Assembly: GCA_937891825.1 (NCBI GenBank)
Contig: CALAHN010000086.1
Coordinates: 1 to 45,480 of the forward strand
From: an uncultured Alphaproteobacteria bacterium
GTDB lineage: Bacteria > Pseudomonadota > Alphaproteobacteria > Bin95
Length of the DNA stretch: 45,480 bases
Direction of reading: 5' to 3'
Shown: one piece after another, positions 2,561 through 34,171 of the stretch
Layout: each line of letters opens with the position of its first letter
Position numbering within the stretch: the stretch's first letter is position 1
Translations under genes and position numbers: made by a program
The notes under the pieces: model-generated
The model's database searches: none
What the model was told of the DNA's origin: nothing
What the model saw: the letters and a program-made list of their open reading frames with translations, nothing else

Positions 2561-4062
2561 GCTTGGTCCTTTGCGTAATCGCCGGATTGTAGCAACCGAC
2601 GGAGAATCTTGCCCACAGGGGATTTCGGAATGTCCGCGACAAATTCATATCGGCGCGGGCGCTTGAAGTTCGCGAGGCCGGAGGCGCGGCAATAGGCGTC
2701 GAGGTCCTCGGCGGTCACCGGCGCTTCGCGCTTGATGAAAGCCGCGACGACCTGGCCCCAGCGCTCGTCCGGCAGGCCGGCGACCGCGACTTCGGCGATG
2801 GCCGGGTGCAGCGACAGCAAGCTCTCGATCTCGACGGGCGAGACGTTCTCGCCGCCGGTGATGATCATGTCGTCGGCCCGGCCGGTCACAAAAAGATCGC
2901 CGTCGCTGTCGAAATAGCCGGTGTCGCCGGTGTAGTACCAGCCCTGCTTCAGGCTTTTCGCGTCGGCGTCGGTCCGGCGCCAGTAGCCCTGGAAAGCTTC
3001 GTCGCCCGCCAGATCGCAAATGATCTCCCCTTCTTCGCCGGGCGCCGCCAGATCGTCCGGCCCGCCGCCGAGCGTCACGACGCGGATCGTCTGATTAATC
3101 CCGGCGCGGCCGGCGGAGCCGGGCTTCGCGGGCGCGTCCGGCTCGATCGAAAAGGTGTAGACCTCGGACGAACCGTAGTGATTGACGAAGAGATCGGGCC
3201 GGAACGCCGCATTCAGCCGTTGCAGCAAGCCATCGGTCATCGAGGCGCCGGCGAAACCGAGCTTGCGGACGGACGAGGCGTCGGTTCGTGCGAAGTCCGG
3301 CGCGGAAACCAGGTCATGATAGAGCGTCGGCACCAGATAGAGGTTGGTGATGCGTTCCTGCTCGATCAGGGCGAGCGAGCTCTCCACATGGAAGCGCGCC
3401 TGGCAGACGAAACAGCCGTCGACCAGGGCGGACGCCAAAAGCGAACGCACGCCCATGGTGTGATAGAGTGGCATGACGCCAAGCGTCCGCTCGCCCCGGC
3501 CATAGCGGTTCTGGGCGACATGGGCGATGGCGGCGGCGCGTTCGGCCCGGTGCAGGCGCGGCACGCCCTTCGGCCGCCCCGTCGTGCCGGAAGTGTAGAG
3601 CATGACCGACCAGGCTTCCGGGTCGCCGTGCGCTGCGGCGGGCAAGGCAGCGCTGGAGCGAAGCTCCTGGAACTCGGGCCCGACGCCAATCCGCAGCAGA
3701 CCCTGGGCGACGGTCGATCCGGCGACGGCTTCGGCGGAGACGTCCTGGAAGAATACAGCCCTGGCGCCCGCGTCCTCGGCGCAGTAGTCAAGCTCGGCCG
3801 CCGTCGCGCGCCAGTTCAAGGGAACGATGGCGATGCCCGAAAGCTGCGCCGCCCAATGCAGCAGGGCCGCTTCCGACGTGTTCTGATAGAGCGAGACGAT
3901 GCGCTCCCCAGGCGCCAGGCCGAGCGCGCGGAGGCCGCCGGCGAGGCGAAGCGCATCGGCGAGCAGCGCTGCATAGGTCCAGCGTCGGTCGCCATCGACC
4001 AGGGCCTCGGCTCTCGGCGCGCGGCTTGCGGCTTGGAGAAGGGCGGCTCCGACATCAAGCAT
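2557..4062 (-). CDS. hmfD: AMP-forming acyl-CoA ligase, probable 2-furoyl-CoA synthetase
   Basis: A 501-residue ANL-superfamily ligase. The phosphate-binding loop YTSGTTGRPKG is at residues 156-166, followed by VMPLYHTMGVRS, a YGSSE acyl-binding motif, the hinge region YYTGDTGYFDSDGDLFVTGRADDMI, GGENVSPVEIE and the C-terminal catalytic lysine in SPVGKILRR. Members activate a carboxylic acid to the acyl-adenylate and then to the CoA thioester. It overlaps the 2Fe-2S subunit gene by eight bases and the hydratase-fold gene by four, so it is embedded in one transcript. Position 4 after the large, FAD and FeS subunits matches hmfD, whose product activates 2-furoate. The substrate is inferred from context only. 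Confidence 0.87.
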   Translation of the reverse strand: MLDVGAALLQAASRAPRAEALVDGDRRWTYAALLADALRLAGGLRALGLAPGERIVSLYQNTSEAALLHWAAQLSGIAIVPLNWRATAAELDYCAEDAGARAVFFQDVSAEAVAGSTVAQGLLRIGVGPEFQELRSSAALPAAAHGDPEAWSVMLYTSGTTGRPKGVPRLHRAERAAAIAHVAQNRYGRGERTLGVMPLYHTMGVRSLLASALVDGCFVCQARFHVESSLALIEQERITNLYLVPTLYHDLVSAPDFARTDASSVRKLGFAGASMTDGLLQRLNAAFRPDLFVNHYGSSEVYTFSIEPDAPAKPGSAGRAGINQTIRVVTLGGGPDDLAAPGEEGEIICDLAGDEAFQGYWRRTDADAKSLKQGWYYTGDTGYFDSDGDLFVTGRADDMIITGGENVSPVEIESLLSLHPAIAEVAVAGLPDERWGQVVAAFIKREAPVTAEDLDAYCRASGLANFKRPRRYEFVADIPKSPVGKILRRLLQSGDYAKDQA

Positions 4063-31710: not shown

Positions 31711-32538
31711 ATGGCCCGACGTGGCATGCGCTTTGGCATTTTTCTGGCGCCGTTTCATGCGGTCGGCGAAAACCCGACCCTGTCCATGGATCGGGACATG
31801 GAGTTGATCGAATGGCTCGATCATCTGGGCTTTGACGAAGCCTGGATCGGGGAGCATCACTCCGCCGGCTGGGAGACCATCGCCGCGCCGGAGATTTTCA
31901 TCGCCGCCGCGCTCCAGCGCACCCGCTCGATCAAGCTTGGCTCGGGCGTCACGTCCCTGCCGTATCATCATCCCTTCCTGGTGGCGCAGCGCTTCGTGCA
32001 GCTCGACCACATGAGCAAGGGCCGCACCATGCTGGGCTGCGGGCCGGGCGCGCTGCCGTCGGACGCCTACATGATGGGCATCAACCCGCTCGATCAGCGC
32101 CGCCGCATGGTCGAAGCGCTCGATGCGATCGTCGCGCTCTTGAAGTGCGAAGAGCCGGTCACGATGGAGACGGACTGGTTCACGCTCCGCGAAGGCCGGC
32201 TGCATCTGGCGCCATGGTCCGAGCGGATCCCGATTGCGGTCGCGTCGACCATCACGCCGTTCGGCATGATGGCGGCCGGCCGGCATGGGCTCGGCGTGCT
32301 GTCGATCGGCGCCGGCATTCCCGGCGGGCCGGAGATGCTGTCGAAGCAATGGGGCATCGCGGAAGACGAGGCCGCCAAGCACGGCCTCGCGATGGACCGC
32401 AACGACTGGCGCGTCGTCGTGAACATGCACTGCGCCGAGGACGACGAGGAGGCGCTGCGTCAGGTCAAGGTCGGCGAACGCCTCGAGACCGTGACGTATT
32501 TCGAGGAAACCCTGGGCCGGCCGCCGGGGCTGGCATGA
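31711..32538 (+). CDS. Luciferase-like (LLM) flavin-dependent monooxygenase, 3'-truncated
   Basis: 275 residues: MRFGIFLAPFHAVGENPTLSMDRDMELIEWLDHLGFDEAWIGEHHS (ends shown) is typical of the limonene-monooxygenase-like LLM group, with SVTSLPYHHPF-type (GVTSLPYHHPFLVAQR) and LGCGPGALPSDAYMMGI blocks. Family members are usually about 370-390 residues. Here homology stops at YFEETLGRPPG, followed by LA and a stop, so about 100 C-terminal residues (the last barrel strands and helices) are missing. The final 74 bases overlap the convergent amidase-GH5 gene. Good GAGGA ribosome-binding site. Probably non-functional or a pseudogene; a shortened active form cannot be excluded. Confidence 0.78.
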   Translation: MARRGMRFGIFLAPFHAVGENPTLSMDRDMELIEWLDHLGFDEAWIGEHHSAGWETIAAPEIFIAAALQRTRSIKLGSGVTSLPYHHPFLVAQRFVQLDHMSKGRTMLGCGPGALPSDAYMMGINPLDQRRRMVEALDAIVALLKCEEPVTMETDWFTLREGRLHLAPWSERIPIAVASTITPFGMMAAGRHGLGVLSIGAGIPGGPEMLSKQWGIAEDEAAKHGLAMDRNDWRVVVNMHCAEDDEEALRQVKVGERLETVTYFEETLGRPPGLA

Positions 32539-34171
32539 TCCGCCGGAGCCGCGCCAGCTTGTCGGCGCGCCAGGTCCGCCAATCGGCTTCGAACAAGCCG
32601 CCGGTATCGCCCGACTCGGGGTTCAGGCACCAATAGAACCAGTTGAACGGCATGGACTGTTTGGACGCGAGATAGTCGACGAACGCCTCCTGCCACTGGG
32701 CGTCCTGGGTTCCCGGACGGCCATGGCCGCCGAACTCGCCGATGCACACGCAGTCCTGACCGTCGAGGAAGCCGAACTTCCGGTCCCAGATGGCCGGCAG
32801 GTTCGCGGGAAAGCCGCCCTGGTTGAAATAGGGCTGATTGAAGACGTCCGGCCCATATGTGTGGGGGATGTAGGCCCGCTTGGCGGCCGGAATGAAGGCA
32901 GGGTCGATCGGCTGGCTTCTGGCCAGGGTCAGGTCCTCGCCCCAGAAGCTGCCGGAGACGCTGGCGACGCCCGAGATGAACATGATAAGGCCGGGATGCG
33001 TCGCCAGCGCGGCCTGGCCCGCCCGCTCCGCCATCGGCCGCCATTCGGCCCAGGTCAGGCCATGGGGCTCGTTGAACAGCTCGATGCCGACGACGTTCCG
33101 GTAATTGCGCGCCATATCCGCCAATGCGACCAGATCGGACCGCCACTGCGCTTCGGAATAGGTTCCTTGCGGATCGTTGGGGCCTGGCGCATGCCCGCCC
33201 GGAAAGCGGCCGGGATCGAAGGTGTGGAAATCCAGCAGCACGAACAATTGCGCATTCCAGGCGGCCAGGACCGTGGCTTCGAGCACGGCGCGGCCGTCGG
33301 CGCCGTATTGCAGCGCCCAATCCGCCGGCCGCCGGCCCGGGCGGATCGTCCAGGGCGAAACCGGGATGCGGATCGCCGTGAACCCGGCCGCATGGACCTG
33401 CTGCATCACGTCGGACAGGCGCCGGCCGGTCCAGAGGCCGTGCGGCGCGCAGTCCGGCGTGTCGAGGCCGTACCAGCTGACGCCGATCAGCCCGACCCGC
33501 CCGCCGGTCGCGGCCATGTAGATCTGGCCGCGGTCGACGATGTAATGCTCGACGCCATGGTCGGCCGGCGCGCGAAGCCGCCGCGACAGGGTCTCGGCTT
33601 CATCCGGGCCGGGACCGCCGGGCGCGCTCGGGCGGTCGAGGGTCGCGGCATAGTCTTCGATCGCGGCGGCATAAGCGGCGGCCAGCGCATCGAAGCGCTG
33701 GACGGCGCGCTCATAGTCGCTGTTCTTGTCGATGAAGAACGGCCCGCCGATGACGCAGGGGGCGTGCGTGCCCGCCAGGATAAGCCCGCCACGGTCCGAC
33801 GACGTGCGCGCGACGACGCCGCGATCCCGGAGGCCGAGGGCGGCGACGAGGCGCGCCTGCACGATCTCGGCCAGCGCCTTGGACCGGCTGGAGCAATGGT
33901 AGTACAGCGTCTCCGTGCCGCTGGCGCGGCCGTTGCCGGAGCTGTTGGCGTGGAGCGAGATCACGAAATCCGGGCCGAAGGCGTTCACATCGCCGGGCAG
34001 GGTTTCGTAGGTGCGGCGATAGACGACCTGGATGCGCACGCCGCGGACTTTTGCCGCGATCCGCGCCGCCAGCGCTTCGCCGAAGACGAATTCGCTGACG
34101 CCGCTCGCCGGATTGACTGCGCCCGGGGAGGTGTTCTTGTGTCCGATGACCAGGACGCAAAGCGGCTGCAT
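32465..34171 (-). CDS. Fusion of amidase_3-like and GH5 cellulase-like domains
   Basis: 568 residues from the ATG at 34171 (GGGGAG upstream). Residues 3-175 resemble N-acetylmuramoyl-L-alanine amidase (amidase_3): zinc ligands His11 (IGHKN), Glu27 (GVSEFVFGE) and His74 (SLHANSSG) are present. The later catalytic Glu, expected in a VLVEVGF/IIEPFF-like strand, is replaced in CVIGGPFFIDKN (Gly142-Gly143). Residues 227-545 form a GH5 barrel with acid/base Glu368 (FNEPHG) and nucleophile Glu479 (IGEFGGHG). No signal peptide. The last roughly 22 residues are read through antisense of the truncated LLM gene and are not GH5-like. Substrate and location are unknown. Confidence 0.82.
   Translation of the reverse strand: MQPLCVLVIGHKNTSPGAVNPASGVSEFVFGEALAARIAAKVRGVRIQVVYRRTYETLPGDVNAFGPDFVISLHANSSGNGRASGTETLYYHCSSRSKALAEIVQARLVAALGLRDRGVVARTSSDRGGLILAGTHAPCVIGGPFFIDKNSDYERAVQRFDALAAAYAAAIEDYAATLDRPSAPGGPGPDEAETLSRRLRAPADHGVEHYIVDRGQIYMAATGGRVGLIGVSWYGLDTPDCAPHGLWTGRRLSDVMQQVHAAGFTAIRIPVSPWTIRPGRRPADWALQYGADGRAVLEATVLAAWNAQLFVLLDFHTFDPGRFPGGHAPGPNDPQGTYSEAQWRSDLVALADMARNYRNVVGIELFNEPHGLTWAEWRPMAERAGQAALATHPGLIMFISGVASVSGSFWGEDLTLARSQPIDPAFIPAAKRAYIPHTYGPDVFNQPYFNQGGFPANLPAIWDRKFGFLDGQDCVCIGEFGGHGRPGTQDAQWQEAFVDYLASKQSMPFNWFYWCLNPESGDTGGLFEADWRTWRADKLARLRRIMPAPAAGPGFPRNTSRSRGVRRP

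Follow-up and report, generated by a model that had tools for sequence, protein, structure and literature searches.

The analyzed window is a contig of 45,480 nucleotides (CALAHN010000086.1, assembly GCA_937891825.1) from an uncultured alphaproteobacterium. An open reading frame on its reverse strand (positions 32465-34171) encodes a single polypeptide of 568 residues in which an Amidase_3 domain is joined to a glycoside hydrolase family 5 (GH5) domain, just as the preliminary description of this DNA had stated. The frame begins with ATG, and GGGGAG lies upstream. Both domains were matched by Pfam: Amidase_3 (PF01520) at residues 6-172 with an E-value of 9e-22 and 78 bits versus a gathering cutoff of 27, and Cellulase/GH5 (PF00150) at residues 232-519 with an E-value of 3e-29 and 103 bits. 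The amidase domain, which is of the endolysin type, is encoded at 33656-34156, and the GH5 domain as a whole (approximately residues 214-548) at 32528-33532. The stretch between them (residues 173-213, 33533-33655) comprises the end of the last amidase helix, a linker rich in Pro and Gly, and the start of the GH5 homology. Low pLDDT values were obtained here with AlphaFold2, at residues 183-191 in the model of the amidase domain and at residues 180-206 in the full-length model. With a pLDDT of 63, the latter was too weak for contacts between the domains to be read.

Codon usage was host-like throughout residues 1-548, with relative codon adaptation of 0.77 for the amidase, 0.79 for the linker, and 0.72 for the GH5 part. 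An origin of the amidase half from foreign or mis-binned DNA was therefore rejected. The last 20 residues of the protein (549-568, encoded at 32468-32527) are antisense to codons of a gene for an LLM-class oxidoreductase, and their codon usage is that of non-coding DNA (0.22). The oxidoreductase gene lies on the forward strand (31711-32538), converges with the fusion gene, overlaps it by 74 bp, and lacks its last ~100-130 codons. On the other side of the fusion gene a methyltransferase gene (tam) is found. The annotated neighbors further include GroEL/ES, a histidine kinase, a VTT protein, RnpA, and YidC. Neither a lysis cassette nor a prophage was found among these neighboring genes. A defense system was likewise considered and dismissed, as the PADLOC result was empty.

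The amidase half scored best against PHROG 435 (phrog_435, "endolysin"; E-value 1e-31). Its nearest phage relatives, from Shewanella phage X14 and Vibrio phages, are single-domain lysis amidases with 43-46% identity, and in phage X14 the amidase gene adjoins holins. The family is also present on bacterial chromosomes. A scan of genome contigs yielded 57 relatives, the closest of which (56-58% identity) reside on contigs of metagenome-assembled genomes from Desulfobacterota and Gammaproteobacteria. Two of these closest loci were inspected by eye, and both showed ordinary gene surroundings of the chromosomal type. The AlphaFold2 model of the amidase domain had a mean pLDDT of 92, and its best fold matches in the PDB were Amidase_3 enzymes: 4rn7 (TM score 0.81), CwlV (1jwq, TM score 0.77), and then the CD27L endolysin. 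A separate, ordinary Amidase_3 protein is encoded elsewhere in the same genome in a frame of 390 residues.

Two further observations were made within this family. Many of the endolysin-type amidases from Desulfobacterota (L065, positions 3665-4000, and similarly L066, L068, L070, and L076) are preceded by an additional open stretch of ~110 residues at the N terminus, which had no match in Pfam; the gene neighborhood was non-phage where it was inspected. The same type of amidase, with 44-45% identity, is encoded on contigs labeled as metagenome-assembled genomes of Lokiarchaeota and Thermoplasmatales (L092 and L111), which could be mis-binned or viral.

The preliminary description had noted that glycine takes the place of the catalytic glutamate while the zinc ligands are intact, and the alignment bore this out. 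His11, Glu27, and His74 are invariant in 41 aligned sequences including the fusion protein. Position 143 is glutamate in 40 of the 40 homologues and glycine in the fusion protein, where it is specified by a GGG codon (33743-33745, reverse strand). All 137 homologues collected by pattern scans (57 genomic and 80 viral) possess the glutamate, a count to be read with the restriction that the patterns themselves required this residue and so could not find members of the family lacking it. Eleven homologues were obtained without such a pattern (nine from phages or plasmids and two from genomes), and all of them have the glutamate. When a pattern for the glycine variant was used, 12 viral stretches matched and none of them was an amidase.

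GGG is one step away from GAG, and a single miscalled base was considered as the origin of Gly143. This was rejected because two other nearly invariant residues are also changed: Asn31 and Asn149, each present in 39 of the 40 homologues, are replaced by Gly and Lys (N31G and N149K). Altogether, the fusion protein deviates at 5 of 40 highly conserved columns, compared with none or one for most homologues of similar mean identity and three at maximum. In CwlD from Clostridium difficile, exchange of the equivalent glutamate (E199A) abolished function (PMC8496864). The amidase of the fusion protein is therefore very probably catalytically dead and would not serve as a peptidoglycan hydrolase.

An amidase that is still active, with another acidic residue standing in for the glutamate, appears extremely unlikely. 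Asp148 and Asp152 are close by in sequence and the zinc ligands are kept, as this reading would demand, but most homologues have these aspartates (34 and 35 of 40, respectively) together with the glutamate. They are thus not replacements for it, and the inactivity of CwlD E199A likewise speaks against residual activity.

The GH5 half presents a different picture. As the preliminary description had noted, both catalytic glutamates of the barrel are in place, Glu368 in the motif FNEP and Glu479 in GEFG, and all eight classic residues of the family are kept (Arg268, His316, Asn367, Glu368, His437, Tyr439, Glu479, and Trp514). With phmmer, the best sequence match in the PDB was 4tuf, a major extracellular endoglucanase (E-value 8e-61), followed by archaeal (2zum, hyperthermophilic) and Acidothermus E1 (1ece) GH5 enzymes down to an E-value of 6e-46. 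We presume that the subfamily is GH5_1, an assignment which rests on these nearest PDB matches and not on a subfamily model. Judged by its residues, the GH5 module is probably able to cut β-1,4-glucan. The nearest relatives of this half are stand-alone enzymes equipped with signal peptides, encoded by this genome and by two relatives of the genus, with 45-46% identity over the whole domain. A second group of GH5 paralogues in the genus is 39-40% identical and carries an N-terminal extension ahead of the GH5 domain.

In the secreted paralogues (L002, L004, and L005), asparagine is found at the conserved active site histidine of the DxH motif (His316 in the fusion protein), and both catalytic glutamates are kept. 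A GH5 sequence with 45% identity to that of the fusion protein was also detected on an IMG/VR contig of 109 kb (L212, positions 3001-4003). Its frame is broken, and it lies beside genes which, as named by eye, encode an SGNH-like protein and a ribonucleotide reductase-like protein with an intein-like insert.

The combination of the two domains had been described beforehand as unfamiliar, and we did not encounter it a second time. It was absent from four relatives of the genus and nine of the family. Among 385 sampled genomes of the class (with the amidase as query) and 398 of the phylum no second fusion was found, nor was there one in the phages, plasmids, and viral contigs searched. The fetched flanks of the 137 amidase loci (57 genomic, 80 viral) were likewise free of GH5 matches. 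A literature search retrieved no paper in which "Amidase_3" occurs alongside "glycoside hydrolase family 5." The fusion, known from one genome, is best regarded as a lineage-restricted chimera of known domains and not as a new kind of system.

The N terminus of the fusion protein is devoid of a hydrophobic segment. The best mean over 12 residues on the Kyte-Doolittle scale was 1.41, as compared with 2.4 for the paralogues that are secreted. Extending the frame by the 26 codons ahead of the ATG also gave nothing resembling a signal peptide. On this point the preliminary description was accurate. It had also called the missing signal odd, and this judgment did not hold: the relatives examined in phages and plasmids begin directly at the amidase domain and have no signal peptide either. 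The missing signal is thus a trait inherited from the endolysin-type family. Because no export signal is present, a cytoplasmic location of the fusion protein is most likely, and the protein would be freed only by lysis.

It had further been proposed that the protein might be an effector or follow a specialized secretion route. Searches of the genome for the type VI secretion protein VipA (PF05591) and for VgrG/spike-type proteins (Phage_base_V, PF04717) were negative, the same searches being positive in Escherichia coli controls, and no secretion genes were present among the annotated neighbors. The proposal thus found no support. These results also bear on the idea of a wall-targeting glucanase, in which the dead amidase would act as a peptidoglycan-binding guide for the GH5 module, with delivery by lysis or a non-Sec route, so that the enzyme attacks other cells or serves in biofilm release. 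The retention of zinc ligands and fold next to the loss of the catalytic glutamate would fit such a guide, as would the intact GH5 module, but with no delivery genes nearby, neither VipA nor a spike protein in the genome, and no homologous architecture found, we regard this reading as very unlikely. A binding role of the amidase domain as such is possible. That a disarmed endolysin amidase was recruited as a zinc-bound peptidoglycan-binding module placing the glucanase on the cell wall nevertheless seems quite unlikely, and to our knowledge the conversion of a pseudoenzyme to a binding module has not been described for Amidase_3.

The 3' end of the fusion gene required separate consideration. 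Orthologues of the oxidoreductase in nine relatives are 86-92% identical over residues 1-275 and have frames of 405-488 residues; in the present genome the protein stops at residue 275. Homology to the orthologues ends at the DNA level at position 32528, and the junction (32528-32541), at which the GH5 homology starts on the opposite strand, lies within a GC-rich stretch. The lost C-terminal part was not found elsewhere in the assembly, weak paralogues aside. In the relatives, the oxidoreductase gene and tam are not neighbors. The antisense tail of 20 codons over the truncated oxidoreductase gene is the mark of a deletion or a misjoin. The simplest reading is a deletion which removed the end of the oxidoreductase gene together with the stop codon of the GH5 sequence.

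A misjoin at 32528-32541 or, less likely, in the linker would mean that the true genes are separate. The draft state of the genome (163 contigs), the GC-rich junction, the oxidoreductase gene being whole in at least nine relatives, and its separation from tam in relatives all speak for such an artifact. We consider it unlikely, as the end that is missing was not found at any other place in the assembly and the linker shares host codon usage with both domains. In addition, the junction is situated outside the link between amidase and GH5, so the fusion itself would persist even if the contig were misjoined at this place.

A decaying gene deserves more weight, although we hold this to be the less probable course of events. 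The fusion and the 3' deletion would then be accidental, the protein functionless, and the amidase residues would have drifted without selection. Loss of the catalytic glutamate and of two nearly invariant asparagines agrees with decay, as do the missing signal peptide, the loss of the stop codon with gain of the antisense tail, and the truncation of the neighboring gene at the same junction. On the other hand, all 568 codons are still open, the catalytic residues of the GH5 half are all intact, and both domains show the codon usage of the host.

On balance, we favor, with moderate confidence, a lineage-restricted chimera that arose by domain shuffling and in which a dead amidase is paired with a GH5 module that is probably competent, the protein most likely residing in the cytoplasm and released by lysis. 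A signal-less Amidase_3 module of the endolysin type, belonging with the phage lysis enzymes and the chromosomal copies to one family, would have been joined in frame to a mature GH5_1-type endoglucanase and would have taken the place of its Sec signal peptide. The module would have kept its fold and zinc ligands, lost the catalytic glutamate and two nearly invariant residues, and might at most bind wall fragments. The GH5 module would meet its glucan substrate only upon cell lysis. Three points count against this reading: only one genome is known to carry the fusion, it is hard to see what a glucanase would do in the cytoplasm, and the position of the junction within two genes keeps gene decay and misassembly as serious rivals.

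If the fusion protein is produced and maintained, it would be a natural example of an endolysin domain that has become a pseudoenzyme with a polysaccharide hydrolase as its fusion partner, and it would illustrate how cytosolic lysis domains can be recombined. If not, the locus documents a one-genome chimera in decay. The signal-less endolysin-type amidases on bacterial chromosomes may merit more attention than the single fusion.

Among known systems, the endolysin-type Amidase_3 family (PHROG 435, with the X14 and Vibrio phage enzymes and the chromosomal copies) shares with the fusion protein the domain, the zinc ligands, and the cytosolic start at 43-58% identity. The fusion protein differs by glycine in place of the catalytic glutamate, by N31G and N149K, by its GH5 partner, and by the lack of a lysis cassette. 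The likeness to GH5 subfamily 1-type endoglucanases (4tuf, 2zum, and 1ece) resides in the conserved catalytic residues and in the E-values given above; in contrast to these enzymes, the fusion protein has neither a signal peptide nor a carbohydrate-binding module and carries an amidase at its N terminus instead. The stand-alone secreted GH5 paralogues, which are the closest to its GH5 half, differ from it by their signal peptide and by the asparagine at the site of His316. The chimeric type VI secretion effector TseP (PMC11893102) also combines a wall amidase with a glycan hydrolase, a lysozyme, and it is described as dually functional and delivered by the secretion system. In the fusion protein, the hydrolase is of the GH5 type, the amidase is devoid of its glutamate, and no VipA was found in the genome.
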